Of a stretch of DNA of 64,000 nt, positions 4,477-61,178 are shown in pieces. Origin of the DNA: Vicia villosa (taxonomy: Eukaryota > Streptophyta > Magnoliopsida > Fabales > Fabaceae). Below the pieces are notes generated by a model that saw nothing but the letters and a program-made list of their open reading frames with translations, made no database searches and was not told the DNA's origin. The translations under genes and the position numbers were made by a program. How positions within the stretch are numbered: the stretch's first letter is position 1; each line of letters begins with the position of its first letter. Location of the stretch: the NCBI RefSeq assembly GCF_029867415.1, contig NW_026705217.1, positions 620,001 to 684,000 of the forward strand. Reading direction: 5' to 3'.

Positions 4477-6585
4477 CGTCTAGACGGACGAACTTTTGGA
4501 TCATTAGATCTACTTTCATTTGCAAGTTTCTTTTCTGTTTGTTTAAACATTTGACTTATAATAGACATTATATGTTTTAATAATCATCATCAGTGCATTG
4601 CATATGTTTGTCTTGAATAATTTACTTCGCTATCACTCATTTTAAATTGTGTCTTTACTTTGCATCTGTTTTATGATACTCAACTCCTGCTAAAGTTGTA
4701 AGCCTTTTGAGGGAGGATGACGAAGATGATGCCGCAACCTCATACAGTGATGCTTTTGAACAGACTATGCTGACGATGTACATGCATTGTTTCAACTCCT
4801 AAACAGTGGAGATATAAGGATGTTAATCCCTCGTCAACCCCTTTGAGCCTAAGGAGTACAAGTTTTCTTTCTTGCACAATTTAAAACCCTTAATCATAAC
4901 CTGGGGCAGGGTAGTTACTCAGTTAACTCGATTGTACTAGCTGTTGTTTATACAAATAATGATGGGTCCCCGCAACCAGTAAGTCATGCAGTCAATATCC
5001 ACCAAAAAGAAAAAAGTTGTTAAGTCAAAACTTATGAAGGAGACTTATCGAAAAGTCGAAACATCCCGCTGACTGTAATCACAAAATAAGCAGTTCAGGC
5101 AAAAGTTAGGGATAACAAAAATCAAAGAAAAAAAGAGGTCACTACAAATCCCCGACCAAAGCAAAAAGAATTACAAAGAAGGATGATTGACTGTCCAAAT
5201 AAACTTCTGGTGCTTCAACCACTATCAAATATCAATGTTAACACTTCAAGCTTTGCTAAAGATGAAACGTAAAGTTAACTGAGCATAGGATCGAAGAACA
5301 TCTCGAAGTTGGGGATGGGTATAAAAATTTTTTTTGAGCCTTTATCCTTTGTTTCTTAAACCATGAACCAAGCCATGTTACAACCCTTGAAAGTCCTAAC
5401 TGAAGCATGGTTAGTTCGAAAGCATACTGTCACAACAAAGGTATCCTGACTCCTTAAGGTTTACCACAAATGCTGAGTTGATATTCTTTTTTTACAAGCA
5501 TCATGTTTTCACAAACATCACGTTTTTACAAACACCACGTTTTTACAAATATCACGCTTTAATGTTTTCCAAAAACTCAAGACAGACGTATGCATTGCAT
5601 CTCATGAATTCATTATTAAACATATTTTGCTACATAATTTCAAATGTTAGCAACATAAAGAACCTGCACAGGGTACAACTAATGACTAACAGTTATCCCG
5701 ACAGACAAGGTTACTCCAAGAAGCCATGTCTCTTACGTATACAAGGGGCATGACACTATTGCCCAACCAATCTGGGGCAATCAAGTCAAAATTTCAAAAA
5801 TCTCTCAGAAGCATCAACAATCAGGGACATGCACCCAAGTGGGGCCGAAGCTACCGCTCGATCAGTCAGGGGCATCACACTAAGTACTGGGGGCATGTCG
5901 CCCATAGTGCACACCTCATAGAGTCCTCATGAGGCGAATCTTTCTAAAGTTCCTACTAGCAGGGGCAAATCTATGCAAGTCCAGTCAGACATCTTGATCA
6001 ATACTCAGTGGTGTGTCCTAATCAAATCCAGGAATGGTAGTTACTATAAATATTGGGGGCAACTTTCAAGGCATCCATTCCTCCTCACAAAATCGACTTC
6101 ACAGGATCATATCCCCACAGAGCAATCCTCAAAAAAGATATCTTAAAACGTACTCGTCCAACAAAAGACATAGCTCCTCGACAGAGTTCACATCTTTGAC
6201 ACCGTCGGTTCCCCGACCTTCTTCTCCTCTCCGAGCATGGTTTATTAATATCTCTAATCCTCAGTCAGGGTACATCAAGTTACTGGTCATCCCCAAGCAG
6301 AAATCATAAATCCCCGGTTGAGCATCTTCAAAACAAGATCAGACATCAAAATCACAAAGACATAGAGATTTATCTTCTCAATCAAAACAACATAAATCAT
6401 ATTCACACGTCATATGTCATAAACATATTCATATATTGCATACATTACCTCATAATGAATTCATACATAACATGCAAGTTTCTCATTTATTTTGAGAGAC
6501 TCGTCACATAATACATGCCTCATGACATTGCATAAAGACTAACTTTACCTTTTTCAGGGTACAAGTACAAGCAGATGAACAAAAT
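4477..6585 (+). other. 3' untranslated region of element A, conserved with B and E
   Basis: No credible gene. Blocks shared with B (12231-14574, reverse) and E (36689-39900) include a region around ACCTGGGGCAGGGTAG (near 4900), a hairpin pair at 5020-5098, and six or so GGGGCA motifs between 5744 and 6060. An ATGCAT/CATGACATTGCAT-rich patch lies at 6415-6540. The length and order of blocks match across the families, indicating a common non-coding 3' region. Confidence 0.7.
5020..5098 (+). other. Paired hairpins in the 3' region of element A
   Basis: TAAGTC (5021-5026) pairs with GACTTA (5042-5047). CTGACTG (5069-5075) pairs with CAGTTCAG (5091-5098) with one bulge. The second is followed by GCAAAAGTTAGGG, and ATCCCGCTG lies between the two. 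Equivalent hairpins occur in B, D and E. Confidence 0.6.
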
Positions 6586-12230: not shown

Positions 12231-14574
12231 TTGTTGGAGATTTCGTTCATTTGTCTGTACCTGTATCCTGCAATAGGTATAGTTATTCTTTATGCAATGT
12301 CATGATGCATGTATTATGTAATGAGTCCCTCAAAATAAGTGAGAAACTTTGTATGTTATGGATGAATTCATTACGAGGTAATGTATGCAATGTATGAATA
12401 TGTTTATGACATATGATATGTGATTTATGTTGTCTTGATTGAGAAAATAAATCTCTATGCCTTTGTGATTTTGATGTCTGATCTTGTTTTGAAGATGCTC
12501 AAGCTGGGGGTTTATAATTTCTGCTTGGGAATAACCAGTAACTTGATGTACCCTGATTGGAGATAAAGATATTAGTAAGCCATGTTGGAGAAGAGCAACG
12601 TGTCGGAGAACCCGTAGTGTTGAAGATGTAAACTCTGTTGGTGAGCCATGTCTTTGTCGGGACGAGCACATTTGAAGATATCTTCTTAATGATTACTCTG
12701 AGGGGATGTGATCTTGTGAACCCGACTCTGTGGGGAGATGTGGGTGTTTTGAAAGTTGCCCCCGGTATTATAGTAACTACCATTTGATTTAGGACACACC
12801 ACTGAGTATTGATCAAGATGTCGAACTGGACTTGCATAGATTTGCCCCAGTTAGCAGGAACTTTGGAAAGATTCGCCTCGCGAGGACTTTATGAGATGTT
12901 CACTATGGGCGATATGCCCCCAGTAATCATAGGCTCATGACAATGTCTCATGTTGATTGGAGAGTAGCTTTAGATATACTTGGATGCATGCCCCTGATTG
13001 TTCGAGCGTCCATGAGAGATTCTCGGAATCTTGACTTGATTGCCCCAGATTGATTGGGAAATAGTTTGAAATCCACTTGGGATGTATGCCTTTAACTGTT
13101 TTGGCATTTGAGAGATTCTTCGAATCTTGACTGGATTGCCCCAGATTGACTGGGCAAAACGTGCCATGCCCCTTGTATACGTAGGAGACATTGCTTCTCG
13201 GGGTAATCTTGTCTATCGGGATAACTTCTAGTCATTAGTTGTACCCTGTGCAAATTCGTTCTGATGCTAACATTTGAAATTATGTAGCAGAATGTGTTTA
13301 ATAATGAATTCATGAGATGCAATGCATACGTTTGTCTTGAGCTTTTTTTTTTTTTTTTGAAAAACATTTAAAATAAGAGATGTAAAAGCGTGATATTTGT
13401 AAACACATGATACTTGTAACAACGTGATTTTTGTAAAATGAGATGTTTGTAAAAACGAAATATCAACTCAGCATTTGTGGTAAACCTTAGGGAGTCGGGA
13501 TACCTTTGTTGTGACAGTATGCTTTCGAACTAACCATGCTTCAGTTAGGACTTTCAAGGGTTGTAACGTGGCTTGGTTCACGGTTTAAGAAACAAAGGAT
13601 AGTGGCTCAAAATTTATTTATACCCATCTCCTTCTTCGTGCTGTTCTTCAGTCCTAAGCTCAGTTAATTCAACTTATGCATTCAGGTTCCAAGAGACTTT
13701 TAGATTTGCATTTTTTATAATGTTGATGGTTCATAAGCAAAGAGAACTTTTGAGATGGCAGTCACTTCTTCCTTTTGGTAGTCACAACATTGTGTTGTTC
13801 ATGAATTTATTGACTTCCTTTTTTTCCATCTTTTTGATATCCCTAACTTTTGCCTGAACTGTCTATTTTGAGCTTACAGTCAGCGGGATGCCTTGATTTT
13901 TGTCTAAGTCTTCTTTTTTGATTTGTGACTTAGCAGGCTTTTGTATATATGTTTTTTCCATTTTTTTTGAAAGATATTGACTGCCTTGTTTGATGATTGA
14001 TGAACCGTCATTGTCTTTTGATTGACATTTCCAACACTCCTTTGATGTGTGCGGTTGAACGTTTGTGATTGAAACCTTTGTTGAAAGGTGTACTAAATGA
14101 TTCTCTTAAAATAGAATGCACAGCCAAATTAACTGAGAACTACCCTGCCCCAGGTTATGATCAAGGGTTTTAATTAGTACAAGAAAGAAACTTCTACTTC
14201 TTAGGCTCAAAGGGGTTGGCGAGGGATTAACATCCTTATATCTCCACTGTTTAGGAATTAAAACAATGCCTGTACATCGTCAGCATAGTCCATTCAAAAG
14301 CATATTGTATAAGGTTGCGGTATCGTTTTCGTCATCCTCCCTCAAAAGGTATACAACTTTAGCAGGAGTTGAATATCACACAACATATGCAAAGTAAAGA
14401 CATAATTTAAAATGAGTGATAGCGAAATAATTAATTCAAGACAAACATATGCAATGCACTGATGATTATTATTAAAATATATAATGTCTATCATAATTCG
14501 AATGTTTAAACAAACAGAATAGAAATTGCAAAGGAAAGTAAAGTTAATGATTAAAAGTTCATCCACTTCAGACA
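12231..14574 (-). other. 3' untranslated region of element B
   Basis: No credible gene. It is the reverse complement counterpart of 4477-6585 in A, with repeated GGGGCA motifs (12740-13160 on minus), the CCTGGGGCAGGGTAG block near 14140, a poly-T run at 13344-13358, and an ATG/CAT-rich patch at 12290-12430. Confidence 0.7.
13854..13933 (-). other. Paired hairpins in the 3' region of element B
   Basis: On the minus strand CTAAGTC (13910-13904) ... GACTTAG, whose + strand partner is 13927-13933, form a perfect 7-bp stem. CTGACTG (13883-13877) pairs with CAGTTCAG (13861-13854) with one bulge. ATCCCGCTG lies between them and GCAAAAGTTAGGG follows, as in A and E. Confidence 0.6.
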
Positions 14575-31935: not shown

Positions 31936-32170
31936 CGAAATTCAAAAAAAATAGAGAGGGAAGCTTGATTTGATTTTGGCACCTATTTTCTTTGACCATT
32001 TTTGTCATTCTACCAATTTTCCACCTCACCAAAATAATTCTCTTCATTAAACCCACTTAAACCCCATTTTACCACTTTTTACCATTTAATTGCCACTTTA
32101 ATCACCAATTAAACACAAGCTAATTACCAAATGCAAAAAGACCAAACTACCACTACTCTTGCTCTCATCC

Positions 32171-32178
32171 TATAAATA
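32171..32178 (+). promoter_or_regulatory. TATA box of LTR E
   Basis: TATAAATA followed by a C/T-rich stretch, a typical plant core promoter. The copy in the 3' LTR is at 41735-41742. Confidence 0.65.
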
Positions 32179-32788: not shown

Positions 32789-33042
32789 CTTCCTCCACTT
32801 CATTAATATCATTGGATCTAGGATGTTGATAGGTTTGAAATGACCTAATCCATAATATTAGATGAATGATATTAATGATAGTGTGAGTTGATTATCTTTT
32901 GTGAATTTTATTCTTCTTCCTCCATTTCATTAATATCATTGGATCTAGGATGTTGATAGGTTTGAAAGAACCAAATCCATAATATTAGATGAATGATATT
33001 AATGATAGTGTGAGTTGATTATCTTTATGCATTTTATCTTCT
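32789..33042 (+). repeat. 127-bp tandem duplication with inverted arms in LTR E
   Basis: Two copies begin CTTCCTCCA at 32789 and about 32916. Each contains TCATTAATATCATT and, about 50 bp on, its exact reverse complement AATGATATTAATGA (32800-32813 with 32865-32878; 32927-32940 with 32992-33005). The 3' LTR carries the same arrangement from 42353. Confidence 0.88.
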
Positions 33043-36688: not shown

Positions 36689-39600
36689 ATTACTATTGAT
36701 GGTAGCCTGAAGTTCGAAAGTTGTTTCTTTTAGCATATGTCCTGGTGGAGAGAGTTTTCTCAGTTTTTAGAATTCTTACTGATTTTCATTTGTAATATTT
36801 CTTGTTTTTCAATGCATTGTTTGCATGTAGAAACTTGTTTGCTTTTGAATGTTAATCTTAATACAATGGATATGTTTGTCTTGAAGTAATCCATTTGTTT
36901 CACTCATGTTTATTTGTTTTTATGCATTATGATACCAATTGCTTTTGCCAAACTCTTGCTAATGCAAAGATTGGAGGGAGGATGATGATATGAAAACGCA
37001 AAATTTCTGGTTGTATGCTTTTGAATAAAACCCTGCTGATGATGTACAGGCATTGTTTCAAATTCCCAAACACCGGAGATATAAGGAAGATAATCCCTTG
37101 ATAACCCCTTTGAGCCTTGAAGTAGGAGTTTCTTTTCTAAACGGAAAAACCCTAATATTTAACCTGGGGCAGGGTAGTCTTCAGTTAATTTGACCAAGTA
37201 TTCGTCTTTCCAAAAAGGGAATGTGCATCCAAAAGTAAATCACGTCATATCCACATCAAAGGTTGGATTATGTGAAACCACAATGGTTATCCATCGCGTA
37301 TCAAAAGGCATGAAAATGTGAAACCACAATGGTTATCCTTCATCCGCCAAGGAACGAGGCAGTCACAACCCTCTCAAGAAGTTAAGACAAAGTCAACGTC
37401 ACACGATTTGTTCAAATCAAAAGAATAAAAAGAAAAAAAAAGAGAATAAAAAAAAAAAAAAGAGAAAAAAGAAGAAAGCTCGCTAAGTCAAAAACTTGAA
37501 AACAAGTGACTTAGGCAAAAGTTAGAGCATCCCGCTGGACGACCAATTCAAAAGAATCAGTCCAGGCAAAAGTTAGGGAAAGTAAAAGGAAAGTGAAAAT
37601 GAAAAGAAAGGACTACAAAACAAAAGTCCTCAGCAAAGAACAAATCTGTGTGAATGCAAATACGAAGACAAGAAGGGTGACTGCTATTCCAAGAAAGCTT
37701 CATTGGATCCTTAATAGCATAAAATCCTTTTGAGAAATGAACACTCATGTTGAGTTAACTGAATATAGGACTGGAGAACATCACGAAGTTGGGGTGGGTT
37801 AAATAAACTTTGAGCCTAAAAATCTCTTTTTTCTAAAAAACCGTGAACTAGGCCACGATACAACCCACAAAAGTCCTAATTGAAGCAGGATTTATTTTGA
37901 AAGCATACTTAAAACAAGAAAGCGTTCCTGACTCCTATAGGTTATGCTGAAAACTTGTGTTGGTATCATATGCTTACAAAAATCAATGTCATTCCTTAAC
38001 CAGTGATTCATTCGCAAAGGTTTTGTGACATCCTTTCAATAAAACTTCAAGACTTACATAATTATTGCGTTTTGATTATCATTCTCAAGATAAACATTTT
38101 TATGCTTGTAAATACTTGTTTGACAATCAGGAAGCTTACATCTGATCATCCGTAGAAATCTAAAACATTGCCAGGGGCATGTTGTTTTCCCAATATAATG
38201 CTTTTACAAGTCTGATTACTCATATGGGGCAAAGATTGAAGACTCTGTTGACCAATCAAATGTGACAAGTACAGTCAATCTGGGGCAGTTACGTCGAGAT
38301 TCGACAAATCTCTCCAAGAATCTGTCAATATGGGGCAGATTATTCCAAGTCTTCATGATGCCAAGGATATCTATGAATCCTCTTCAAGCAAGTTCCTCTC
38401 ATAGACTATGTAGTATGGGGCATGTTGTGAATTAAAAGTTACCTTGATCACCTCATTAGCTTGAAGTACAAAGGTCGTTGCGATGATCAATCCAGAGTAT
38501 GTCACTCTCTACTAAGAAGTTTTGAGATAAGTTGTTGACTGTTGGGTTTTCTCTCTCACCTTGTGTTGAGTTTTGAACTAAAATCCTCCGCAGGTTAATT
38601 CTTTTGTTATGATGATAACTTCTTATTTCTCCTGCAAGTTCATAATAGTGCTTTTCTCTAAGGAAATTTTCTCTGATCCCCCCATATTAGAGTTTGCAAG
38701 GATGTGTTGTTCTATCCCTTTTGGTAGAAATTGATGATATGGTATCCCTCTTAGAGGTTGATAGTTCCCAAAGAGTTTGCTTGGTGTGCATCTCCAATAA
38801 GTTTTCCCTCAGTGCGGAGTTCACGTTGTTATTCTTTCAGTGGATTTATGGATATTTGAACTTTGAATTTGAATTTTCCACTTAGTTAGTAGCTTTCTCT
38901 TGAGCCTTGTAGCAAGATTTTGTTCCTCCAACGACCTCGGTTTATCTACAATTGAATCCTCAGCCGTGTTCCTAGCATGGATCTTCAGAAGAATGTCTTT
39001 TGATAATCTCCAACTTTTTGAGATTCACCAAGTCTGTTGTATTGTGATGTCTTGTCACTTCCTAGTATTTTTGTGTTTGTTTTGTCAGCATATACATGAC
39101 ATTCATTCATTCATACATGCAACATGCATAAAAAAAAATTAAAAAGAAAAATATATTCATATCCATTCTTGCATTTCTTAATGTTTTGATCCACTCTGTT
39201 TGATGTTGTTATCCCCCAAAGTATATGATCTCTCTCCATTAGAGTATTTACCTTAAGCAGAAAGTGTTTATCCTTTCTAATTCCCCACAGAGTTTGTTCC
39301 TCGTGGAAGAATTTTGCTTCAGTGTTCCTCCTCAGCTCATTTGTCAGGATGGAACTAATCCCCATTTGAGTTCATTCCTCATTTGCCAGAGTCTTGTTTG
39401 GCCGTTTCTATCCGGTTTATTCGTGGAGTTGAACTTTGATCTCTTGAAGTACTATGTTGGAACCTCTCTAGGATAAGAAACCTAGATCGAGAAGGCATTT
39501 ATTTTGCACCTCTTGAGGATTTTGTTTTCCTTAACAATGGAGAATCTGTTTATGATTGATATCAGATATTGAAATACTTATTTTCCATCAGTGTTGGAAT

Positions 39601-44000: not shown

Positions 44001-44440
44001 TGCTCAAGATCAATGGCTGAGTATTTCTCTCTAACGACAACAAAGTGTTTATTCGTTTTAAAAACGTTTTTTTTTCTTTCCAAAAAGCGGAACTACATTA
44101 GCTCTGACTTCTCCATTGCACCGAGGAGGTATGTAGGCCCAAAGCTTAACGCTTTGCCGAGCTTATTTTAAAAATAAAACAAACTCTTTTTTAGCACACA
44201 CACACACAGATTTTCAAAAAGGTTCCCGTGGAGTACCACGGATATGAGGGGTGCTTTAAACCTTCCCCTCATATAATCAACACCCGTACCTGAGATCTCT
44301 TTCTTGTTTTAAAAACAAAACTTTGGGTTTTACGTTCTTTTCCCTTTTCCTTTGAAAAAATAAAGCGCGGTGGCGATTTCAAAACGGAATATTGATTCGA
44401 GTCAATCCCATGGCTTCGATATCAGATTTTCCCCGCTACA
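41046..44440 (+). repeat. 3' LTR of element E
   Basis: Identical in length (3395 bp) to the 5' LTR. Substitutions seen against 5' positions 32604, 32772, 33925, 34138, 34294 and 34572; five of the six are C/T. The palindromes, TATA box and duplication repeat at +9564. Confidence 0.95.
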
Positions 44441-44687
44441 ATGAGAAGATGAGAAGTTCTTATGTATGAGTATCTTCTGAAATGAAAGTGGATTATTTGT
44501 TAATCAGAAGTTCTGATTAAAATCTTTTAGAAATTATGATTCGGTTATTACTAACGTTTCATTGTCTAAGTTGATTCAGAACCTCTTTTAAAGCAAAACA
44601 GCTGTAACGTTTTATCTCGGGATGGTAAACCTGTCTTTACTGTTCATGGATAAGCGCGCGTGCAGTTGAAGGGACGCCGACCATAGG
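44441..44687 (+). mobile_element. Copia element F, segment after pol, up to the D insertion
   Basis: It begins with the right target duplication of E (ATGAG, 44441-44445). With E removed, the pol stop runs into AATGAGAAGATGAGAAG, a purine-rich stretch that may be the copia polypurine tract, so the 3' LTR of F may begin within the next bases. No second LTR copy is available in the window to confirm this. ATAGG at 44683-44687 would be the left target duplication of D. Confidence 0.7.
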
Positions 44688-47600: not shown

Positions 47601-49457
47601 CTTTTTGTTGACTTTGAAAATGACCTGTAATGTCTTTGGCCATATTTTTCAAATGGTGAATGCTATGACCATGGGATCAATTGCATTTGAAAGATAATTG
47701 AATTTCCTTCAAAATGAGCTTTGGTTGACATTTTTTGGATGAAGGATGAGAGAGTTATGATCAGTCAAAGTTGAGTTGACTTTTCAGGCAAAAACCCTAA
47801 TTTTGAATCTTAGGGTTTTGTTGATTTTTGATCTTTCCTTGATGAATTGTGATCATCCAATGATCAAATGTTGAATCCTTTGACAAAATATGGACTTTGA
47901 CAAAAAATTTCATTTTTGACTGTCAGTTGACTTTTTTGGTCAAACGGGTCGTCTGTTGACTGTTTGAGCTGCTGACGGTGCGTCTGAGTGAATTGAAGTT
48001 TGAAAATTTGTATGATGGTACTTTGAGATGTATGGATGTATATGAAATCCATTTGAGCTCTCAAAACTTGTTGCTCCTGTTAAAACAAGAAAAACCCTGA
48101 TTAGGGACTGTCTGTATAGGAGGCAGTTAAGCGTACCTGATTTTTGTGCAGTGTTGAGTTTCTGCTAATCATGTGATATTCAGAAGACTTCTAACACAAA
48201 AATCTTGGAAATTTGAATTGTGAATGATTGATTTGATTGATTGTACAAATCACTGTGAATTGTACTGTCTGCAGTTTGTCTGTCAACCGACTGTTCGTGT
48301 ACTGAAGCAGCAGTTAAAGTGAAAAATCAACCGTCAAAGTTAATTTTCTTTTTTTTTTTGTTGTTATTTTTGTTTTTGTTTGGTGTGAAGCATGAAAATT
48401 TATTTACATGACTTGTTAGAAAACAGAAACATAATAAATAACTGATATTTACGGTATGCGGGCAAAATTACCGATAATAACCTGAAAATTATTTAATGCA
48501 CAGAAATAGAAATATTTGACTGGCAGAAAATACACAAAATATTATCTTAGTAATTAAGCAATATTATGACAACTAGTACAACATTTAATACTGACAGTAT
48601 AAATATTACATACTATATTGAAAAGTACGACGAATAAACGGTACGTTTAAGAAAATAAGAAACACGACAAATTTTAAAAATGACGGTTGACGAACCATGC
48701 TATGATTAATAACATGTAGAGGAGTGGGAGTGCAACCATTGCAGGTCCACACTTCTCAGGACTGTGTAGGCAGAAGAAAGTTGTGATCACCGTAGCAATG
48801 GTGACGACTGTAAGAAGCAGTGTTTCTATCCATTTTGCCATTTTTGCTAGGGAAGAAGAAATGATGGATTATGAGGTAGGAATTTGAAAGATGATTTAGA
48901 ATTTGATGTGAGATTTGTGGGAAGAATGAGAGGTATTTATAGAATGGAAAGAAGGAAAGAGACGTTGGGGAATGATGTGATTCCGTACAAAAGGAAAATT
49001 TGAGTGGAAGTAAGATTTGAAAGAAAGTGTATGATAGTGTTGGAAAAAGGAGAGATTTGATTTTTGAAAAAGAGATTTGAAAAGATTTTTGCAAATAATG
49101 GAATATAATACAAAAATTAGTGGGAAACAAAAGATAATAATAATCTACTTGTTACCAGTACAGTCTGAGTTTCCTGATTCTGCGCCTGCAAAAAGATTTT
49201 AACTCTGTACCAATTGTGTCAGTACTATTTATCTGTAAATAAATAAATAGCATGTGTGAAGTAATAAACAGTATTTGGTGTTTGCGTAAGAATAAATTCA
49301 ACTGCAAGCCAAATCACTGTATAAGAAAAGTTCTAAAAACTAAGTATTTCATATGTCAGGATATTTGTTGAAATAAAAATCCATGATTATATGAGACCCT
49401 TAATTTTCAGATTGGAGTTTTCTTGAAAAATATGTGGGCAAATTTTGGGGTATAACA
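44688..49457 (-). repeat. 3' LTR of element D
   Basis: 4770 bp, TGTGGACCGT to GGGGTATAACA in + orientation, hence TGTTATACCCC...CA on minus. It ends with the conserved Ogre-type U5 (GTCGCCACCGAC, CCTTTGTATCCATGG). It is very A/T rich at 45590-46170. The block at 47450-47780 (AGTCCTCTAACCAATGTC, CTCATATCAAAATGA) resembles part of LTR C. A TATA box is at 48933-48943 on minus. ORFs up to 124 codons have no recognisable domain. Confidence 0.93.
48933..48943 (-). promoter_or_regulatory. Candidate TATA box of LTR D
   Basis: On minus, CTATAAATACCTC is a good plant TATA motif, located about 520 bp from the LTR start. The copy that would drive the element lies outside the window, near 65446-65456. 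Confidence 0.55.
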
Positions 49458-49470
49458 GTTGCCCCTATTC
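49458..49470 (-). promoter_or_regulatory. Polypurine tract of element D
   Basis: On minus, GAATAGGGGCAAC lies directly before TGTTATACCCC. Confidence 0.85.
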
Positions 49471-49819
49471 AATCTTCTTAAACCTGAAGAGATTGTATGA
49501 ATCTGAAGGTAGAAGATGATTGAATATTTAGATGCCCTGAAAATTTGCACTTACCTTGATCAGAAGAGATGTTGGAAGTGGCATTTGAATGTCGTCTGCG
49601 AAATGTTGTTGGCAGATTGAAACATTACCTGAGATGGGCTTTCAGATGCCACCAGGTGAATGTGTTGATGGTTTGTTCATCAGAATGAATTCATTGATTA
49701 TATCTTGATGAAGGATTTGAAAGTCTTTGTGTTGACTGTTTCGGAACCGTCCAAGGTTACCGCTTTAAGTCTTGGAAGATAATCGTTACGGAACTTGTCC
49801 AAAGTTTTTTTAGATTTTG

Positions 49820-50060: not shown

Positions 50061-51261
50061 TAAATGAGTTGAGAATGAGAGTTCTTCAGAGTGAATCTTT
50101 GGTTTGATTGTATCTGAAAGGACTGCTTGTCTGAATAAGATTCAGGATGAACACTGCATGTGAGTGAGAACATCTTTGCTGAAGACATCTGTCTACCTGA
50201 AAAATCAAGTTAATAATATGCGATGTCTATGATGCATGTATGATATGAGATCCTCGAGCTAGAGGAGAAATATGCAAGTTATGTTGTGTATGAATATGCG
50301 TATGATGCATGATTGTGAATGTGAATATGAGTGTGAATGTGATGCATGGTTTATGCAGCTTAGAGCGTGTCAAGCTCCTGATTGGGAAAATAAATCCCAG
50401 CTTAGTCGTCAAGAAATGAAGGCATTGTGATTGGGAAAATAAATCCCTGCTAGCCATTTGGAAGTGAAGGCATCGTGGTTGTTGATGATCTTCTGTCTCG
50501 CTTGAGTACCCTGGGTTGGGGAAATTCTTTGAGAACCAGGATGTTCTATTGAAGGATCTTTGATTACTGCTCGGGGATGAACAGTAGTTTTGAGAGTTCG
50601 GACTGTGACGCCCTTTGGAGTGGGAATGAGGAAGATGCATAATCCTCCGATGCACTATCTGACCAAGTTTGGGTGCGGAGATCACACCTTCTGAAGACAG
50701 TAATCTGGAACAACCCTGCTGGGGAATAAGACTTCTTTCGAAAGAAAAATCTTTTTGAGGGATTTGTTGAGGAATGTGTCTCCATTGGGGAAACTTCCTT
50801 CTGATGCTGGTTTAGGATAATGTCCAAATAATTGGGACATGTCCGGAATGCTATTCCTGTTTTTCCTGGTAAACATCAATCATATTCAAATGCATATGTT
50901 CATTCAAAATATCATTGGGATGCTCGCGTATTCAAAACAGAAAAAATGAAAATGTTAGTTATAAGCTGCATTGATTTTTGAAAAGGTGCCGTGATAGGCG
51001 GATTAGTATAGGGAGACAACAATCCTAGAAGTAGGAAATTGTCAGAAAGTTTTGAAAAGTATTTATGAAAAGAAATAGCTATGTGAGAACGATCCAGTCA
51101 AGTTTCAATTCTGCTATTGCCAATCTGTCTTCGAGCATCTCATCCCTCACTTGTTGGAAGAAAGTGATTGGACTGATCGGTGTCTTTGAGGTGTTGAACC
51201 TTGTCGGTGAGTAGGCAGCTGAGCGGGACATAGTTGTATGCTTTATTCCCTAATTTTTGCC
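50061..51261 (-). other. 3' untranslated region of element D
   Basis: No credible gene. It holds an ATG/CAT-rich patch at 50220-50345 and two AAATAAATCCC(A/T)GC-type repeats at about 50385-50450. It corresponds to the 3' regions of A, B and E. Confidence 0.65.
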
Positions 51262-51401
51262 TAGGCTGCCCTTTCAGGTTTTCAGCCTACCGGGATTGTA
51301 TTTGTTTTGTCTCTAATTTTTGCCTGGATCGCCCTTTCGGGTTTTCAATCCACCGAGACGCTCATTTTTGCCTAAGTTGCCCTTTCAGGTTTTCAACTTA
51401 G
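51262..51401 (-). other. Three tandem hairpins directly after the pol stop of D, with covarying stems
   Basis: On minus, in order: CTAAGTTG/CAACTTAG (51401-51394 with 51379-51372), TGGATTG/CGATCCA (51352-51346 with 51331-51325, one G-U pair) and TAGGCTG/CAGCCTA (51289-51283 with 51268-51262). Each encloses a 14-base loop AAAACC(T/C)GAAAGGG and is followed by GGCAAAAAT. The stems differ in sequence yet remain paired, while the loops are almost invariant. An A-run of about 14 bases lies between the pol stop and the first hairpin. Confidence 0.75.
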
Positions 51402-51422
51402 CGAGCTGTATTTTTTTTTTTT

Positions 51423-54400
51423 TTAAGCAAAGTACTTTTTGACTATGTCCGCATTCACAGGGTGTGGGAAATCCTCGCCATCCATGGTGGTAAGCAACAT
51501 GGCACCGCCGGAGAATATTTTCTTGATTATGAATGGTCCCTCGTAGGTGGGGGTCCATTTGCCTCTGGGATCACCTTGTGGTAAGATGATGCGTTTGATA
51601 ACCAAGCCACCAGTTTGGTATGCTTGACTTTTGACTTTCTTGTTGAATGCTTTGATCATGCGCTTTTGGTATAGCTGGCCATGACAGATAGCTGCAAGTC
51701 TTTTCTCATCGATCAAGTGTATTTGGTCGAATCGAGTTTGAATCCAATCGTCTTCGTCTAGATCGGCTTCTTTCATGATCCTTAAGGAAGGAATCTGGAT
51801 TTCGATTGGGAGAACTGCTTCCATACCGTAGACTAACGAGAATGGAGTTGCCCCTGTTGAAGTACGCGCAGATGTGCGATAACCATGAAGAGCAAAAGGT
51901 AACATCTCATGCCAGTCTTTGTAGGTTACTGTCATCTTTTGTATGATTTTCTTGATGTTTTTGTTGGCGGCTTCGACAGCGCCGTTCATCTTTGGTCGAT
52001 ATGGAGAAGAATTATGATGTTTGATCTGGAACTGCGTGCAGAGTTCAGTAATCATTTTGTTGTTTAGATTCGTGCCATTGTCAGTGATGATCCTTTCGGG
52101 GATGCCGTACCGACAAATGAGATTGTGCTTGATAAACCTGGCTACCACATTCTTGGTGACAGAAGCATATGAAGCTGCCTCTACCCACTTTGTGAAGTAG
52201 TCAATAGCGACCAGGATAAAGCGATGTCCGTTGGAAGCAGTAGGTTTGATTTCTCCAATCATATCAATACCCCACATTGCGAAAGGCCAAGGAGCCGTCA
52301 GAACGTTTAATGGAACTGGAGGTACATGCACTTTGTCGGCATATATCTGGCATTTGTGACAAGTTTTGGAATGATGATGGCAATCTGTCTCCATGGTAGA
52401 CCAGTAGTAACCTGCTCTCAAGATCTTTTTAGCCATTGTATGTCCGTTGGAATGAGTACCGAAGGTACCATTGTGTATGTCTTCCATGATTTGTTCTGCT
52501 TCCTTCTTGTTTACGCAACGAAGTAAAGTCGAGTCATGGTTGCGCTTGTACAAAGTTCCATTGCTTAGGAAGAATTTGGAGGCAAATCTCCTTAGAAACT
52601 TTCTGTCGTTAATAGATGCCCCTTCAGGGTACTCCTGGGTTTCGAGATACCTTTGTATTTCATGGAACCATGATTTGTCTTCCATTTGTTTGGTATCGAT
52701 CTCATTGCAATAGGCTGGTTCGTCTTGCCTGTAAATGGTGATCATAGGAGCTTCGTCGTCCCAATTGACTTTGAACATGGATGACATGGTAGCTAAGGCA
52801 TCAGCTAGTTGATTTTCTTCGCGTGGGATGTGTTCGAAAGTGATCTCCTCGAAGTAAGGAATCAAACTCAACACATGTTCTTTGTATGGAATTAGATTTG
52901 GGTGCTTTGTGTCCCATTCCCCTTTGACTTGGTAGATTACCAAGGCCGAGTCTCCGTAGACTTCAAGGAATTTGATTTTTAGATCAATTGCAGCTTTGAG
53001 ACCCAGAATGCATGCTTCGTATTCGGCTATATTGTTGGTGCAATTGAAACACAATCTGGCGGTGAAGGGTGTATGACCTCCTGTGGGGGAAATGATCACA
53101 GCTCTGATGCCATTGCCGAGCGCATTAGAAGCTCCGTCAAAAACCATAGTCCATCGGGATCCTGGTTGTTTGTAGTCATTGACTAGCATAATGTCTTCGT
53201 CTGGGAAGTCAAAGTTCAATGCCTGATAATCATCTACTGCTTGATGAGCTAAATGATCAGCTACCACACTTCCTTTGATTGCTTTTTGCGAAGTGTATTG
53301 AATGTCATATTCTGTTAGGATCATTTGCCATCTTGCAATCCTTCCAGAGAGAGCAGGTTTTTCGAACACGTATTTGATTGGATCCATCTTGGAGATCAGG
53401 AAAGTGGTGTGATTTAGCATATACTGTCTTAGTCGGCGAGCCGCCCATGCTAAGGCACAGCAAGTTTTTTCGAGTAGTGAGTATCTTGTTTCACAATCGG
53501 TAAACTTTTTGCTAAGATAGTAGATTGCGTGCTCCTTTCGACCGGAATCGTCATGTTGTCCGAGTACACACCCCATTGAATCTTCTAACACAGTTAGGTA
53601 CATTATCAGAGGTCTGCCTTCCACAGGAGGTAACAAGATTGGCGGTTTTTGAAGGTATTCTTTGATTTTATCAAAGGCTAACTGGCATTTGTCATTCCAT
53701 CTTTCCACTTGATCTTTCTTCAGTAATTTGAAGATTGGCACACAAGTAGGAGTCATATGGGCAATGAATCTGGCTATGTAGTTTAGACGTCCCAAGAATC
53801 CTCTGACTTGTTTCTCGGTACGGGGTATAGGCATTTCTTGAATGGCTTTGACCTTGGCAGGATCAACCTCAATACCTTTACTGCTGACGATGAAACCTAA
53901 GAGTTTACCGGATCTTACTCCAAAGGTACACTTGTTCGGGTTCAGTCGCAATCTGTATTTCTTGAGTCTGTCAAACAGCTTGTGTAAATGACTCAAATGT
54001 TCTTCTTCGGTGTTGGATTTTGCGATCATGTCATCGACATACACCTCTATTTCCTGATGAATCATATCATGAAATAGTGTTACCATTGCTCGTTGGTAGG
54101 TAGCTCCAGCATTTTTTAGACCAAAGGGCATTACTTTGTAACAAAAGGTTCCCCAGGGAGTTGTGAAGGTTGTTTTTTCCATGTCTTCGGGTGCCATCTT
54201 GATTTGATTGTACCCTGAGAATCCGTCCATAAAGGAGAATACCTTGCATTGTGCGGTATTGTCAACTAGTACATCGATGTGCGGTAAAGGGAAATCATCT
54301 TTAGGGCTTGCCCGGTTCAGATCTCTGTAGTCTACACACATTCTGACTTTCCCGTCTTTTTTGGGTACAGGCACGATGTTAGCTATCCAAGGAGGATAAC

Positions 54401-54971
54401 TTACAACTTTTAGGAATCCGGCATTGAATTGTTTTTCAACCTCGTCTTTGATCTTTTTTGACATATCAGGCTTACTCCTTCGCAGTCTCTGTTTGACCGG
54501 AGTGCTTCCTTCTTTGATTGGCAGGCGATGAACTACAATGTCCGTGTCAAGGCCAGGCATATCTTGATAAGACCAGGCGAATATCTCGGCGTAGTCTTGC
54601 AACAATTGAATCAGTCTTTGCTTGACACTGTTTTCTAAGTCAGCCCCAATTCTGACCTCTTTCTTTTCTTCGTCACTGCCCAAGTTGATGACCTCAATCG
54701 GCTCCTCATGAGGCTGTATGGCTTTTTCTTCTTGTTCTAGAAGTCTTGCAATTTCTCTTGACACTTCACAATCTTCCTCACTTTCGTCCTCAGTTTGGTA
54801 GATCGGATTTTCAAAGTCATGACGGGCAATAGCAGAGTCGTTATTGACTGGATCCAGCGTGTATGTGAATCTGCATGGTAGATATGTGAGTGTGTATGAA
54901 GAGAAAAACATAGCTATTTGAAAGCGAATAAAGAAAGAAAAAGGATCACAAAATTTTGAACATGCAAGCAT
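51423..54971 (-). CDS. pol: Ogre D ORF3: reverse transcriptase, RNase H, second RNase H, integrase
   Basis: A 1182-codon frame encoding the enzymes that copy element RNA into DNA and insert it. Residues about 34 onward are probably the true exon, since a splice acceptor-like CTACCATGCAG ends at 54871 and the earlier residues look intronic. RT motifs include VPVPKKDGKVRMCVDYRDLN, FMDGFSGYNQI and YVDD at 311-314. A gypsy-type RNase H follows (from LEDSMGCVLGQHDD to about ADHLAH). A second, archaeal-type RNase H starts at FDGASNALGNG (D612) and includes NNIAEYEA and ADALATMSS; two RNase H domains are a mark of the Tat lineage. Integrase has a zinc region (GTHSNGHT...CHKCQ) and D903, D964, E1000 (DD35E). 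All catalytic residues are present. The end is TAA at 51423-51425. Confidence 0.93.
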   Translation of the reverse strand: MLACSKFCDPFSFFIRFQIAMFFSSYTLTYLPCRFTYTLDPVNNDSAIARHDFENPIYQTEDESEEDCEVSREIARLLEQEEKAIQPHEEPIEVINLGSDEEKKEVRIGADLENSVKQRLIQLLQDYAEIFAWSYQDMPGLDTDIVVHRLPIKEGSTPVKQRLRRSKPDMSKKIKDEVEKQFNAGFLKVVSYPPWIANIVPVPKKDGKVRMCVDYRDLNRASPKDDFPLPHIDVLVDNTAQCKVFSFMDGFSGYNQIKMAPEDMEKTTFTTPWGTFCYKVMPFGLKNAGATYQRAMVTLFHDMIHQEIEVYVDDMIAKSNTEEEHLSHLHKLFDRLKKYRLRLNPNKCTFGVRSGKLLGFIVSSKGIEVDPAKVKAIQEMPIPRTEKQVRGFLGRLNYIARFIAHMTPTCVPIFKLLKKDQVERWNDKCQLAFDKIKEYLQKPPILLPPVEGRPLIMYLTVLEDSMGCVLGQHDDSGRKEHAIYYLSKKFTDCETRYSLLEKTCCALAWAARRLRQYMLNHTTFLISKMDPIKYVFEKPALSGRIARWQMILTEYDIQYTSQKAIKGSVVADHLAHQAVDDYQALNFDFPDEDIMLVNDYKQPGSRWTMVFDGASNALGNGIRAVIISPTGGHTPFTARLCFNCTNNIAEYEACILGLKAAIDLKIKFLEVYGDSALVIYQVKGEWDTKHPNLIPYKEHVLSLIPYFEEITFEHIPREENQLADALATMSSMFKVNWDDEAPMITIYRQDEPAYCNEIDTKQMEDKSWFHEIQRYLETQEYPEGASINDRKFLRRFASKFFLSNGTLYKRNHDSTLLRCVNKKEAEQIMEDIHNGTFGTHSNGHTMAKKILRAGYYWSTMETDCHHHSKTCHKCQIYADKVHVPPVPLNVLTAPWPFAMWGIDMIGEIKPTASNGHRFILVAIDYFTKWVEAASYASVTKNVVARFIKHNLICRYGIPERIITDNGTNLNNKMITELCTQFQIKHHNSSPYRPKMNGAVEAANKNIKKIIQKMTVTYKDWHEMLPFALHGYRTSARTSTGATPFSLVYGMEAVLPIEIQIPSLRIMKEADLDEDDWIQTRFDQIHLIDEKRLAAICHGQLYQKRMIKAFNKKVKSQAYQTGGLVIKRIILPQGDPRGKWTPTYEGPFIIKKIFSGGAMLLTTMDGEDFPHPVNADIVKKYFA

Positions 54972-55164: not shown

Positions 55165-58100
55165 TCAATCAGGGAGCACCCAGCTGTTCCAGTTGCAGTT
55201 GTTCTTTTCGTCTTCCGTAGCATTGATTCCGCTAGTGGGAAAATGCGTAGGTAATTCCTCAGGATAAGTTGGATGATTTGTTGGATATGAGAATCCAGGT
55301 GGAGGTCCCTCTATTGGCTGAGCGAGATGCTCGATAAGGCCGTCCCATGCAGTAGGAATGATGTTTTGAATAGAGACTTGTGCATCCTGATAAGGAGTGT
55401 ACTGTGACAGAAAATAACCTTCGTTGTTTGGCATCTTCCTGGCTTCTTCAAGAGCGAAGTTGTCGTCGTACTGTTCGTCCCATCCAGTCGGGACAATGTC
55501 TTTGATGGGAGTTGAAAAGCTCGGAGGAGCGGAATATTTCACCATATAGTCGTATTTGCCGCTGGGTTCTCCTAGCGTGTCCCATACTTCTTTGGGTGGA
55601 TTTTGATATTGCTGAGTGACGGGACTTGTGATACTTCCTTCATTTTGATTACCCTCTTCTGTTGGAGTAAGATCTTCCAGAGCAATGTAAGAATTCTGAG
55701 GTGTGATATACTGGTAGTTGTAACCGTCATTTGGTCCTCCCACAGCATCCCACATTCCCATGGTAATGGGTGGAATTTCGTCTGGATATGGCTGAATGAT
55801 GTGGTTCAAGTATGTCCCTTCATCATCAATGGCGTTTACTTCTTGGCTGGCGAAGTGTGATATTAACCCTTCAGAGCGAGGATTTTGATCATTCTTTTGA
55901 TTTTCACCATTATAGCCCAGACCTAGCTTGTCGGACTTGTAGGGTATATCAGGGAGTTGTCCCCATACTGTGCGATCACCCTGTTCAATCATGGCTTTGG
56001 CATCTTTGAGAGAAGCCATAGTTGTAGCTGGAGTAGCAGGAATATGCTTGGTGGTAGAGATATCTGGAGATACAACCTCAAAAGCTTGATACGGAGTTTC
56101 GATGGATTCGCCCTCCATCTCAACATACTTGTCGTTGCTCAAGTGACTGACCATATATTCTTCTTCGCCATAGACTGTGACAACCTTTCCTTTTACTGGG
56201 TATTTTAACTTCTGATGCAGGGTAGAAGTTACAGCGTTTGCCCCATGTATCCAAGGGCGTCCTAGTAAACAGGAGTATGTTGGAAGAACGTCTATTACGG
56301 AAAAGATAACATCGAAAGTTTGAGAGCCCACTCTGATTGGGAGCTTAACTTCTCCGTACACCGTTCTTGTTGACCCATCGAAGGCTCTTACAACCACATC
56401 ACTTGGTTGTAGCACAACTCCTTTGAAGTCAAGTTTTTCCAGTATTACCTTTGGTAACACGTTTAGAGAGGAACCATTGTCTATTAGCACATGAGACAGA
56501 GTGGTGCCGTTGCATTCGATAGAGATGTGCAGGGCCTTGTTGTGATTTCTTCCAGCAGGAGTTAGATCCACATCAGAGAAACCAAGACCATTGGGCACTG
56601 TAAGACTGGCGACACAATTCTCAAATTGGTCGATTGGGATTTCTTGAGGCACATGCGCAGCTTGAAGGAACTTCATTAGAGCTTTAGCATGAGCTTCTGA
56701 ATATTTTAGCAGAGATAACATTGAGATTTTTGAAGCAGTATGCCCCAGTTGTTCGACAATATTGTAATCACTTTTGCAGATGATTTTCAATATTTCGTCC
56801 ATCTCTTGCTTTGATGGATCCTCAGCAGTGATCTCCACCGGGGTTTGAATTTGTTCAACTTGTGGCTCTTTGCCTCGAGCGCTGACATTTTGATTAGGAA
56901 CTGGAACTCGGACTGGACCAGCAGCAACATTTGGAGAAATTTCTGGTGAAAAGATTCTTCCACTTCTCGTGATTTTGCTGGTACCCACAATATTACCCAC
57001 AGTTGGAGTAGTTAACTTTGCGGTCTCTTCAGTCGAGGTACTCTGCTTAACTCCATGAATGTAAACATTATTGTCATATCCCCATGGGACAGCTTTGTCT
57101 GAGGAGTATGGAAATGGAGTTGGACTAGCAATGACTACTGATGCCACTTTGAGTGTAGCAGAAATTTTGAATGGAACCTTGGCAGAGATTTTGAAGGGTA
57201 AGCTGGAGATCACTGAGACATCCTCTATTCTCATCCCGTTTGCAAAGACTTTGCCCAACATGTCCATAGAAGGGAGCCTCTCAAACATAATGATACGGCG
57301 ATCCATGTGTTTTTGAATTCCCATCTTTAGATTTTCACAACCATTGGGTTGGCGTGAGCAATAAAAGCAGTCGGGATCACAACCTGGAAAGTAACCAGCT
57401 TGGATGAACTTTCTTTTGACTTCGAGGAGTGGAATTGATACTTCGTTCACATCATAAATGTAAACTGTGTCTATGATAGCATTAACAGTTTTGTCATGCT
57501 TTGGCATAGGTGCTGTGATGACATTTGGAGTTTCTGGAGGATCGAACTCAATTTCTCCAGCATCTATCATGTCTTGGATTTTATTTTTCAGGGCCCAGCA
57601 GTGATCTGCGTCATGTCCTGGACAGTTTGAATGATAGGCACATGTTGCATCAGGGCGATAATTCAGAGAAGAAGTATTGACATTCTTCGGAGGACCCCTT
57701 AATGTGATCAGATCCGCTTTAAGCAAGTGCTGCAATGCCTGAGAGATTGGCATGTTGATTTTGGTGAAAGTTCTTCTTGGTGCATCTGGTCGATGCGTAT
57801 ATTTTGGCTGTTGATCTTTTTGAGGTGCAGATGCGGAGATCATAACTGCCCCTACAGATTGATGCTGATCACTTTTGTGACTTGTCTGAATTTGCGCTGT
57901 ATTGACCTCATTTCTGATGGGCCTTTTTGTAGTACCAGAGGAGGATCCTACTTGAATTTTTCCATTTCGAATGCCACTTTCGACACGTTCTCCGGTCAGT
58001 ATTAGGTCAGTGAAACCTGATGATGAACTTCCCAGCAAATGGCTATAGAATGGGCCAGTTAAAGTGCCCATGAACATGTCGACTAGTTCGCGATCAGATA

Positions 58101-58872
58101 AGGGTGGTTGAACCCTTCCAGCCATATCTCTCCACTTTTGTGCATACTCTTTGAAACTTTCTTTTGGTCCCATAGACATGCCTCGCAATTGAGTACGAGT
58201 GGGTGTAAGATCAGCATTGTATTGGTACTGTTTGTAAAAAGCAGCAGCTAATTCTTCCCAAGTATGAACCTTGGTATTTTCTAGCTGGTAGTACCATTCG
58301 AGTTGTGTACCTGACAGACTTTCTTGGCAAAAGTGAATCCACAATTTGTTATCTGTTGTATGAGGTTGTATCTTCCTCACATAAGATCTCAAATGTAGTT
58401 TTGGACAAGAAACTCCATCATACTTTGCAAAGGTTGGAACTTTGAATTTTGGAGGGATGACAACATCCGACACGAGTCCCAGATCATTGAAATCTAAGCC
58501 AGGTATTTTTTGTATTTCCATAGCTTTCATACGATCCTCCAACTGTTGGTATTTGTCATCATCCTGTTCGTCTCCAGAATGATCTTCTTCTTCATTTGAA
58601 GAGAGAGAGGGTTTAGCAGAACCCTGGTTGCTTTGATTATCTTCTTGTTCACCATCACCGACTATTTCAGGGATTGGTGGCTTTTTGATCTTTTTGACAG
58701 GGATCTTGATCTTCCTTCTCAGGTAACTCAAGCCTGCAGATTCTTTGGGCTTCTTCTTCTTCTTGAGTATCAGGGCTTTCAGCTCTTGTTGCCCCTTTGC
58801 CAGTTCCAGAATTGCCACTTGAACTTGGGCATTCTGTACTTCGAGATTCTTGATGCTTGCCTCAGATTCCAT
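55165..58872 (-). CDS. gag: Ogre D ORF2: Gag-protease
   Basis: The frame opens at 58917, but the ATG at 58872 (MESEASIKNLEV) is the better start: it matches the start of the E gag ORF, and an acceptor-like CTGTTTATTTCAG ends nine bases upstream. Numbering from the 58917 ATG (1250 residues), a coiled-coil, Lys-rich N-terminus covers 16-80 and an acidic linker about 85-130. The capsid-like retrotransposon gag domain is at about 145-320 (FAKYDGVSCPKLHLRSYVRK, ESLSGTQLEWYYQL, ESFKEYAQKWRDMAGRV). A Cys/His-rich region CAYHSNCPGHDADHC starts at 426. An aspartic protease has LIDNGSSLNVLP with the catalytic Asp at 813, and CLLGRPWIHGANAV further on. DNG instead of D(T/S)G is usual in plant elements of this type. 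The C-terminal 300 residues are low-complexity, with repeated P-T-x-W-D motifs. Confidence 0.92.
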   Translation of the reverse strand: MESEASIKNLEVQNAQVQVAILELAKGQQELKALILKKKKKPKESAGLSYLRRKIKIPVKKIKKPPIPEIVGDGEQEDNQSNQGSAKPSLSSNEEEDHSGDEQDDDKYQQLEDRMKAMEIQKIPGLDFNDLGLVSDVVIPPKFKVPTFAKYDGVSCPKLHLRSYVRKIQPHTTDNKLWIHFCQESLSGTQLEWYYQLENTKVHTWEELAAAFYKQYQYNADLTPTRTQLRGMSMGPKESFKEYAQKWRDMAGRVQPPLSDRELVDMFMGTLTGPFYSHLLGSSSSGFTDLILTGERVESGIRNGKIQVGSSSGTTKRPIRNEVNTAQIQTSHKSDQHQSVGAVMISASAPQKDQQPKYTHRPDAPRRTFTKINMPISQALQHLLKADLITLRGPPKNVNTSSLNYRPDATCAYHSNCPGHDADHCWALKNKIQDMIDAGEIEFDPPETPNVITAPMPKHDKTVNAIIDTVYIYDVNEVSIPLLEVKRKFIQAGYFPGCDPDCFYCSRQPNGCENLKMGIQKHMDRRIIMFERLPSMDMLGKVFANGMRIEDVSVISSLPFKISAKVPFKISATLKVASVVIASPTPFPYSSDKAVPWGYDNNVYIHGVKQSTSTEETAKLTTPTVGNIVGTSKITRSGRIFSPEISPNVAAGPVRVPVPNQNVSARGKEPQVEQIQTPVEITAEDPSKQEMDEILKIICKSDYNIVEQLGHTASKISMLSLLKYSEAHAKALMKFLQAAHVPQEIPIDQFENCVASLTVPNGLGFSDVDLTPAGRNHNKALHISIECNGTTLSHVLIDNGSSLNVLPKVILEKLDFKGVVLQPSDVVVRAFDGSTRTVYGEVKLPIRVGSQTFDVIFSVIDVLPTYSCLLGRPWIHGANAVTSTLHQKLKYPVKGKVVTVYGEEEYMVSHLSNDKYVEMEGESIETPYQAFEVVSPDISTTKHIPATPATTMASLKDAKAMIEQGDRTVWGQLPDIPYKSDKLGLGYNGENQKNDQNPRSEGLISHFASQEVNAIDDEGTYLNHIIQPYPDEIPPITMGMWDAVGGPNDGYNYQYITPQNSYIALEDLTPTEEGNQNEGSITSPVTQQYQNPPKEVWDTLGEPSGKYDYMVKYSAPPSFSTPIKDIVPTGWDEQYDDNFALEEARKMPNNEGYFLSQYTPYQDAQVSIQNIIPTAWDGLIEHLAQPIEGPPPGFSYPTNHPTYPEELPTHFPTSGINATEDEKNNCNWNSWVLPD

Positions 58873-58882
58873 CTCTTCTGAC

Positions 58883-59192
58883 TGAAATAAACAGCGAAGA
58901 GATGAGAAACCCGTCATGAGAACCTGTTATGAAATGTGTATGACTGGATGCCATGTGTATGCAATGTATGAAATGCAAATGCAATGTATATGAATGCAAT
59001 GTATGTATATGCAATGCATGAAGTGAAATGTGTGTGCAATGTTTCAAGGATCTTAGAGTTTAGATTTGTTAAAGAAGAAACAAACGTTAGTTAATCAATT
59101 TATTTCTTTTTTCTTTTTCTGCTTCTTTTTTTTGCTTCTTTTTTATTTGCCTCATTTGGGCTTACAAGACAGAAATAAAATGGAATGATCCT
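58883..59192 (-). other. Spacer between ORF1 and gag of Ogre D
   Basis: Non-coding. It holds many ATGCAATGTATG/ATGCATGAA units (58930-59045) and a C/T-rich stretch on the element's strand leading to the acceptor-like CAG at 58882. The numerous ATGs would hinder scanning ribosomes, which fits removal by splicing before gag is translated. Confidence 0.6.
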
Positions 59193-60527: not shown

Positions 60528-60531
60528 TACC

Positions 60532-61178
60532 TGCAAAAACAAAGGTAAACTCTTTGATCCTTGAAGTGTCTGGTGCAAAAAATGATATGCTTATGATGCA
60601 AACATGTGGCACACAAAAACAAATCAAACAATAGCCTTAGGTTTAAAGGCTTGCATGAAGTTGATAGGTGATACCCTCCCCACTGAAGTTGAGTTGGTTA
60701 AAACCTGTCCTAGAATTGGATTCGGGTTCTATGATCCTTGGAAGTAACATCTCAATACGGCGCTCGAGCGGCCGATCAAAATATTCCTCGAGGATAACTA
60801 ACTTCGATCAATTTCAAAGCTAGCCACTTAAAAGGCCACAAGTCAAGTTCAACTAAAAGGTTCTAAGACAAATTAGTGTTTAATGACACTTCGGAAGCCT
60901 AATATACTCCTTGATCGTTTTCAAGGGACATCAGTATAAACCAAAGTATCACACTAACGATGACTACCAGATCAACCGTATCGGTACATGCCGTACAGTT
61001 TCCTTGGTCTAATGTCATATACTTAAGGTATCTCGAGATTCGGGTTAGAATCTTTCACACAAGCAAAATACCCAAGCAAACCTTTGAAAGATAAAGCAAT
61101 CAAATCAATCAATTGAAAACATCGACCTATTCTCTTAAGGTAACCCCTTTTGAAAACATTTTGTTTTTTGAAAGTATC
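60532..61178 (-). other. Leader of Ogre D
   Basis: Between the primer site and ORF1. On minus, TACCTTAA/GTATAT (G at 61022) corresponds to the donor-like sites of A and B. TTTGTTTTTGCAG ending at 60531 is the acceptor-like site before ORF1. Several blocks match 2782-3420 of A. No gene. Confidence 0.6.

Follow-up and report, generated by a model that had tools for sequence, protein, structure and literature searches.

Nine hairpin units of one shared design, three in the LTR retrotransposon D and two each in the related elements E, A and B, lie in tandem in the window (the whole 64-kb stretch of DNA analyzed), and a covariance model run over all of it placed such modules only 3′ of coding parts. 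Selection on RNA shape is supported by covariation within the units, by long-range helices around them and by folding energies that favor the sense strand. We suggest that the units belong to a cis-acting structured domain of the sense genomic RNA, which may present a repeated docking site and serve most likely in nuclear export, a reading that we put first but hold tentatively.

The window is made up of nested LTR retrotransposons, and its host, going by the encoded proteins, is a legume. Ogre elements are very abundant in the legume tribe Fabeae, and D is identified by its coding content as a full, minus-strand Ogre. Its pol ORF places RVT_3 (620–729) between RNase H (425–555) and integrase (820–993), downstream of RT (202–362; all Pfam), and a second RNase H-like domain at this place is described as a trait of Ogre (Tat) Ty3/gypsy elements (PMC6317226). 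The gag-pro and pol ORFs of D are separated by 193 bases, a distance judged from the ORFs alone, which agrees with the short, intron-like gap of 274 bp on average given for Ogre (PMC6317226). An additional ORF1 upstream of gag ends in a basic KRKRPRET stretch and is a possible RNA-binding or nuclear partner of the module. Relatives of the D pol protein made up 5547 of 7929 scored candidates; among the 120 listed, the named ones were nearly all from plants, the best being from Vicia villosa (79% identity, 97% coverage), followed by other legumes. The LTRs of D are 99.96% identical over the visible 2.8 kb, the 5′ LTR extending beyond the window, and the 3′ LTR starts near 49457, as judged only by the terminal TGTTATACCCC after GGGGCAAC.

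The original prediction had placed the hairpins after the pol stop, which is true of D; in A, B and E, tblastn (E 1e-4) matched gag pieces and detected neither pol nor protease, and these three are filed here as pol-less relatives, the Tat domain order of pol that defines a full Ogre not being found in them. The primer-binding stretch TGGCGACTCTGCTGGGG is common to D, A and B, and a variant occurs in E. The gag-like ORF of E is free-standing and has a Vicia villosa counterpart of the same length (251 aa each, 83% identity across the full length), so a gag-only family of the E type may be maintained. B carries a gag remnant, and A is a related piece that also has one, with 79–85% identity to B in matching blocks. 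The claim that the hairpins are conserved in three other families therefore needed trimming: A, B and E do carry pairs of them, but A and B are close kin, which leaves about three independent lineages, rather than four, in one 64-kb window as the evidence base. B, D and E appear from their LTRs, at least 99.2% identical, to have transposed recently with the module kept. Target-site duplications of five bases flank E (ATGAG, 31477–31481 and 44441–44445) and B (CCTCG, at 20176 and 8090). E lies just where a Ty1/copia pol ORF (28298–31480) ends. Direct repeats 25 kb apart (1–1888 and 25044–26874, 97–99% identical) bracket the region containing A, B and C, and copia genes follow right after the second repeat, an arrangement of nested insertion.

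Table 1. Positions in the window of the units, their enclosing domains and the parts of the host elements
Feature	Position	Strand	Description
Unit D1	51360..51406	-	P1 GCTC/GAGC, P2 TAAGTTG/CAACTTA, P3 CCT/GGG, GAAA loop; covariance model E 1.2e-16, training member
Unit D2	51309..51359	-	P1 GTCTC/GAGAC, P2 TGGATTG/CGATCCA, P3 CCC/GGG; covariance model E 1.2e-19, training member
Unit D3	51245..51296	-	P1 TCCC/GGGA, P2 TAGGCTG/CAGCCTA, P3 CCT/GGG; covariance model E 2.4e-20, training member
Unit E1	37478..37528	+	P1 GCTC/GAGC, P2 TAAGTCA/TGACTTA, P3 CTTG/CAAG, AAAA loop; covariance model E 6.4e-19, training member
Unit E2	37529..37580	+	P1 TCCC/GGGA, P2 TGGAC/GTCCA, P3 ATTC/GAAT, AAAA loop; covariance model E 6.4e-16, training member
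Unit A1, degenerate	5015..5063	+	P1 at best GTT/AAC, loop diverged; covariance model E 1.1e-12, training member
Unit A2	5063..5113	+	P1 TCCC/GGGA, P2 TGACTG/CAGT-TCA, bulged T; covariance model E 4.1e-17, training member
Unit B1	13890..13938	-	P1 GCCT/AGGC, P2 TAAGTC/GACTTA, loop diverged; covariance model E 2.7e-19, training member
Unit B2	13839..13889	-	P1 ATCCC/GGGAT, P2 TGACTG/CAGT-TCA, bulged T; covariance model E 3.5e-18, training member
D whole closed domain	51223..51452	-	230 nt; includes last pol codons and stop 51423-51425
D closing helix, 5′ arm	51442..51452	-	In pol 3′ end; pairs with 51223-51234 in the MFE fold
D closing helix, 3′ arm	51223..51234	-	
E rod domain (predicted)	37014..37907	+	Helices 37014-37037/37884-37907, 37098-37119/37764-37786, 37180-37199/37743-37763, 37358-37367/37676-37685; RNAalifold on A, B, E
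A rod domain (predicted)	4749..5426	+	Helices 4749-4771/5404-5426, 4831-4853/5284-5306, 4918-4937/5269-5283, 4987-4996/5186-5195; RNAalifold on A, B, E
B rod domain (predicted)	13518..14304	-	Helices 14282-14304/13518-13540, 14200-14222/13636-13658, 14118-14137/13659-13679, 13976-13985/13757-13766; RNAalifold on A, B, E
D pol ORF	51423..54971	-	RT, RNase H, second RNase H-like domain, integrase; Pfam order
D gag-pro ORF	55165-58917	-	
D extra ORF1 upstream of gag	59193-60578	-	461 aa, DUF7745 E 8.7e-112; as in Ogre elements
E gag-like ORF, free-standing	35933-36688	+	251 aa
E LTRs	31482-34876 and 41046-44440	+	99.82% identical
B LTRs	8091-11531 and 16728-20175	-	99.28% identical

All the stems quoted at the outset were present, in D at 51262–51401 (−), E at 37483–37565 (+), A at 5020–5098 (+) and B at 13854–13933 (−). 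Read 5′ to 3′, each unit opens with an outer stem P1 of 4–5 bp, two bases (GC or GG; GT in A1) and an inner stem P2 of 5–7 bp; after the apical part come P2′, the 3′ strand of an internal loop and P1′. The hairpins had been described as usually followed by GGCAAAARTTAG, and this stretch was indeed exact in six of the nine units and had one mismatch in a seventh, with A1 and B1 diverged. However, instead of trailing the hairpin, GGCAAAARTTA forms the 3′ strand of an asymmetric internal loop, closed by the P1 stem that had been missed; by hand reading, P1 (GCTC/GAGC, GTCTC/GAGAC, TCCC/GGGA or GCCT/AGGC) is formed in eight of the nine units. This loop is the part common to D, E and A/B. It is two bases short in D1 and diverged in B1, and A1 has lost most of both P1 and the loop sequence; A2 and B2 have one bulged T within P2.

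The near-invariant loop reported for D was confirmed as sequence, AAAACCYGAAAGGG plus the following C being exact in all three D hairpins with no other match within two mismatches in the window (0.32 expected). It is not an open loop, since the apical part in D consists of AAAA and a three-pair CCY/GGG stem under a GAAA tetraloop. Likewise, the second tier predicted for E is present as a four-pair stem (CTTG/CAAG and ATTC/GAAT) capped by AAAA loops, so that the third stem is topped by an A-rich four-base loop in both D and E; no clear third stem was seen in A and B. Kissing-loop dimerization through the apical loops was rejected because, as read from the sequence, they are A-rich and not self-complementary. 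The first unit has a GCTC/GAGC P1 in D and E, and the last a TCCC/GGGA P1 in D, A, B and E; because these types match between elements, the unit positions look orthologous, with an extra middle unit in D. Insertion of a foldback transposon was rejected on account of the identical unit order in D and E. Between the last units of A and B there are four differences among the 15 apical bases and none among the other 34; their first units share P2, with P1 and loop different. An A-rich stretch lies upstream of the first unit in all four elements (e.g. 37422–37477 (+) and 51411–51424 (−)).

In a MAFFT alignment of the units, both sides had changed with pairing kept in 13 of 15 base pairs, a count equaled in 1 of 500 shuffles, and 83.5% of 127 cells were paired, compared with 68.6% after shuffling and 18–50% when the partner was slid by 1–3 columns. 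The number of pair types, one of five measures of covariation, did not exceed the shuffles (473 of 500 as high). A model-based alignment, which itself leans towards structure, gave double changes in 12 of 14 pairs and pairing in 84.1% of 126 cells. Stem arms were also permuted, using hand-read arms with identical arm pairs counted once and the bulged T omitted. The cognate pairing of P1 was the single best of 120 arrangements (five distinct arm pairs), and for P2 (seven distinct arm pairs) two of 5040 arrangements, one of them the cognate, matched the observed pairing. P1 and P2 together contain three G–U pairs versus one A–C mismatch, a small count. We make no claim that mispairing between units within an element is selected against, since P2 cross-pairs in D reach 5–6 of 7. 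These double changes, with the long-range helices that beat column shuffles and the sense-favoring energies given below, bear out the proposal of selection on RNA shape.

A covariance model built on all nine units (MAFFT misaligned P2 in a set restricted to A, B and E) and run unfiltered on both strands of the window returned them at E 1.1e-12 or better; these units, those of D included, are its training set, and such matches are no independent discovery. There was no convincing tenth unit in the window, the next match (E 0.027) having a mostly unpaired P2. A structure-only descriptor of the unit was not selective, with 188 matches on the plus strand versus 141–210 in 30 one-strand shuffles, and the internal-loop 12-mer with up to two mismatches occurred 15 times in the window versus 16.6 expected. 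Single features alone do not exceed chance; tandem order and covariation taken together do.

In A, B and E, BLAST-conserved blocks flanking the hairpins pair with each other, and RNAalifold on the three sequences predicted four nested long-range helices enclosing the units, of which the inner two were recovered from a shorter region. Among 64 hand-listed pairs of these helices, 180 of 187 cells were standard pairs and eight pairs had double changes, as in CTCAGTTAA/TTAACTGAG of A and B versus TTCAGTTAA/TTAACTGAA of E; sliding by 1–5 columns left 28–53% of cells paired with 0–2 double changes, a control that favors the structure, which was derived from the same sequences. A, B and E share two ungapped 11-pair runs, and the longest run in 200 column shuffles was 9, reached once. 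The A, B and E units are accordingly modeled at the tip of a rod about 680–890 nt long. Duplex energies of single elements were matched by 5 and 0 of 60 shuffles for A (200 and 340 nt, respectively), 0 and 5 for B and 1 and 3 for E. D has a shorter closing helix that spans the pol stop, in which GCGGACATAGT, within the final codons of pol, is paired with ACTATGTCCCGC past the third unit in the MFE fold; by itself this helix was equaled in 5 of 200, 29 of 200 and 11 of 60 shuffles, which is weak and suggestive.

Folding energies favored the sense strand. The D fold over 51215–51470 (−66.6 kcal/mol) had a z-score of −3.25 in sense versus −0.56 in antisense. With 24 shuffles per region, the alignment energy of the A/B/E domain gave z −6.47 versus −3.08, and that of the A/B-only domain −6.84 versus −2.23. 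Controls from A and B gave −1.82 (sense) and −0.58 (antisense) for the gag remnant, −3.19 and 0.21 for the downstream region and −3.95 and −1.89 for the 5′ UTR (2760–3500 (+)/15980–16724 (−)); the antisense domain alignment and all three sense controls also beat 24 of 24 shuffles, leaving the effect size as the only special feature. The conserved, sense-biased fold of the 5′ UTR is a candidate for a classical packaging leader. Single-sequence folds (A 4910–5300, z −1.68; B 13665–14140, −4.89; E 37170–37765, −5.30; MFE for B and E) are weak evidence and were dropped as support because similar values were not rare in a scan of the window (541 of 638 400-nt windows scored, 10 shuffles each; mean z −1.2, 5% below −4.69). 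Since many windows fold well, the case rests on the covariation and the size of the alignment energies. A DNA cruciform was rejected in view of the sense-strand bias.

Rfam release 15 had no match in the window at gathering score, and relaxed thresholds for the D and E regions returned one weak, unrelated match each (E 8.2 and 9.1), so that a known ribozyme or riboswitch was rejected; the module would be an RNA family absent from that release. DNA patterns of the module matched nothing in the viral contigs or the genome contigs searched. The D pol protein as a single query had no match in the viral contigs, and a 28-row alignment of it gave 90 pattern matches there and 37 in the genome contigs, none of them confirmed. 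A search with a peptide translated from the strand opposite the D hairpins found nothing, and the titles and abstract beginnings returned by searches of the openly licensed literature contained no description of such an element.

Because recently moved pol-less elements kept the modules, these bear the marks of a cis-acting RNA signal rather than of something that serves pol expression. In the explanation that we propose, this retention is observed, as are the anatomy, the covariation and the sense bias. Two or three tandem modules, each with a conserved internal loop between two helices of free sequence, would be held at the tip of a closed domain, by a long rod in A, B and E and by a short closing helix in D. 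The loop (5′ GS, 3′ GGCAAAARUUA) resembles a protein docking site because it is shared across lineages and presented two or three times; a protein that handles the genomic RNA may dock there, and the tandem arrangement would provide avidity. The step concerned could be nuclear export of unspliced full-length RNA, as for CTE and the transport elements of IAP and MusD. To our knowledge, the use of an NXF1-type receptor is not established in plants.

Export is ranked first because of the position of the modules, the partly unspliced RNA of Ogre and the transport elements of mouse LTR elements. Ogre is reported to have a functional intron (2025 review, PMC12786077) and to require partly unspliced RNA (PMC6317226). 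Only some Ogre transcripts lose the gag-pro/pol intron, so that unspliced RNA would need to be exported. According to the same review, no study has directly addressed how the RNA of plant LTR retrotransposons is exported (PMC12786077); the mouse elements IAP and MusD are described as using structured transport elements (PMC12786077, PMC3362945), that of MusD being a complex fold with a kissing loop and a pseudoknot. A primate retrovirus is reported to have swapped one export system for an element from the non-coding region after env (PMC11379458); retroelements can therefore acquire export elements anew. Against export, the intron-bearing protease-pol region is missing from the pol-less elements, which do not require the export of intron-containing RNA, although their long intronless RNA may need export as well.

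MPMV CTE, IAP RTE and MusD MTE are located downstream of the coding genes, in the interval from the last ORF to the 3′ LTR, and CTE presents the same internal loop twice. The D units (51245–51406) likewise lie between the last gene and the 3′ LTR, and the module is, as in these elements, a structured RNA with repeated internal loops 3′ of the genes. It differs in having a plant Ty3/gypsy host and no Rfam match, and its hairpins stand side by side in tandem, whereas CTE has two loops on one stem. Transport elements promote the export of unspliced RNA and bind an export receptor, roles that for the module are proposed; we therefore liken it to them in position and probable fold and do not file it as a member. 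With Rev/RRE, Rec/RcRE and Cer1 CERV the elements share a large domain, a rod and a module-bearing tip, and Ogre has its extra ORF (DUF7745); in those systems an element protein and RNA export go together, whereas the ORF1 protein is only a candidate RNA partner. It is conceivable, if improbable, that ORF1 (with its basic KRKRPR end) or Gag binds the loop and exports unspliced RNA, and that A, B and E, most of whose genes are gone, parasitize this route by retaining and even enlarging the handle; if so, plant retrotransposons would have a two-component RNA handling system like Rev/RRE or Cer1 CERV.

A packaging signal is a possible alternative and nearly as likely as export: Gag, the element's own or a helper's, would recognize the modules and bring genomic and pol-less RNA into virus-like particles. 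The modules are kept by families with no detectable pol, of which E retains its gag-like ORF; Gag supplied in trans needs a shared RNA tag, for which the internal loop common to D, E and A/B would qualify, and a repeated loop fits a multimeric binder. Retroviral packaging signals are cis-acting, like the module, and are needed by defective elements. They usually lie in the 5′ leader, whereas the modules are 3′ of the genes, and the conserved 5′ UTR fold of A and B (z −3.95) could serve instead. Moreover, the gags of D and E match with an identity of only 25%, and it is not obvious that one Gag would recognize both loops. For export, packaging and parasitism between families alike, a compact repeated module common to full and pol-less elements offers a handle for testing.

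A shield against nonsense-mediated decay or exonuclease, of the type of the Rous sarcoma virus stability element, is unlikely. That element adjoins the gag stop, and in D the first unit similarly starts 16 nt past the pol stop, upstream of a 3′ UTR of about 2 kb and a long LTR; the A, B and E domain, too, is 3′ of the last coding remnant found. The A, B and E units, however, are about 540–790 bases from the nearest such remnant rather than beside a stop, and we know of no covarying repeated modules in the Rous sarcoma virus shield. It is still less probable that the structures have no function, being hairpins or inverted repeats of repetitive DNA that persist through recent kinship of the families. 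Many windows do beat their shuffles in folding, hairpins of the unit geometry are common, and A and B are close relatives; but shared descent alone gives no pairing-preserving double changes, and the sense-favoring energies, the excess (small as the count is) of G–U over A–C and the identical unit order of D and E also speak against it. An effect on translation near the pol stop, whether on readthrough, on termination or on reinitiation, is highly improbable. The last codons of pol and its stop are indeed contained in the D closing helix, but the modules are kept in A, B and E with no detectable pol, and three successive modules after a stop exceed the needs of known readthrough signals.

The lowest fold z-score of the window scan (−10.9, 10 shuffles) was at 49201–49600 (−), across the end of the D 3′ UTR and the start of its 3′ LTR. 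A 25-base inverted repeat (49466–49490/49502–49526, 80%) lies just before a GGGG tract near this LTR.
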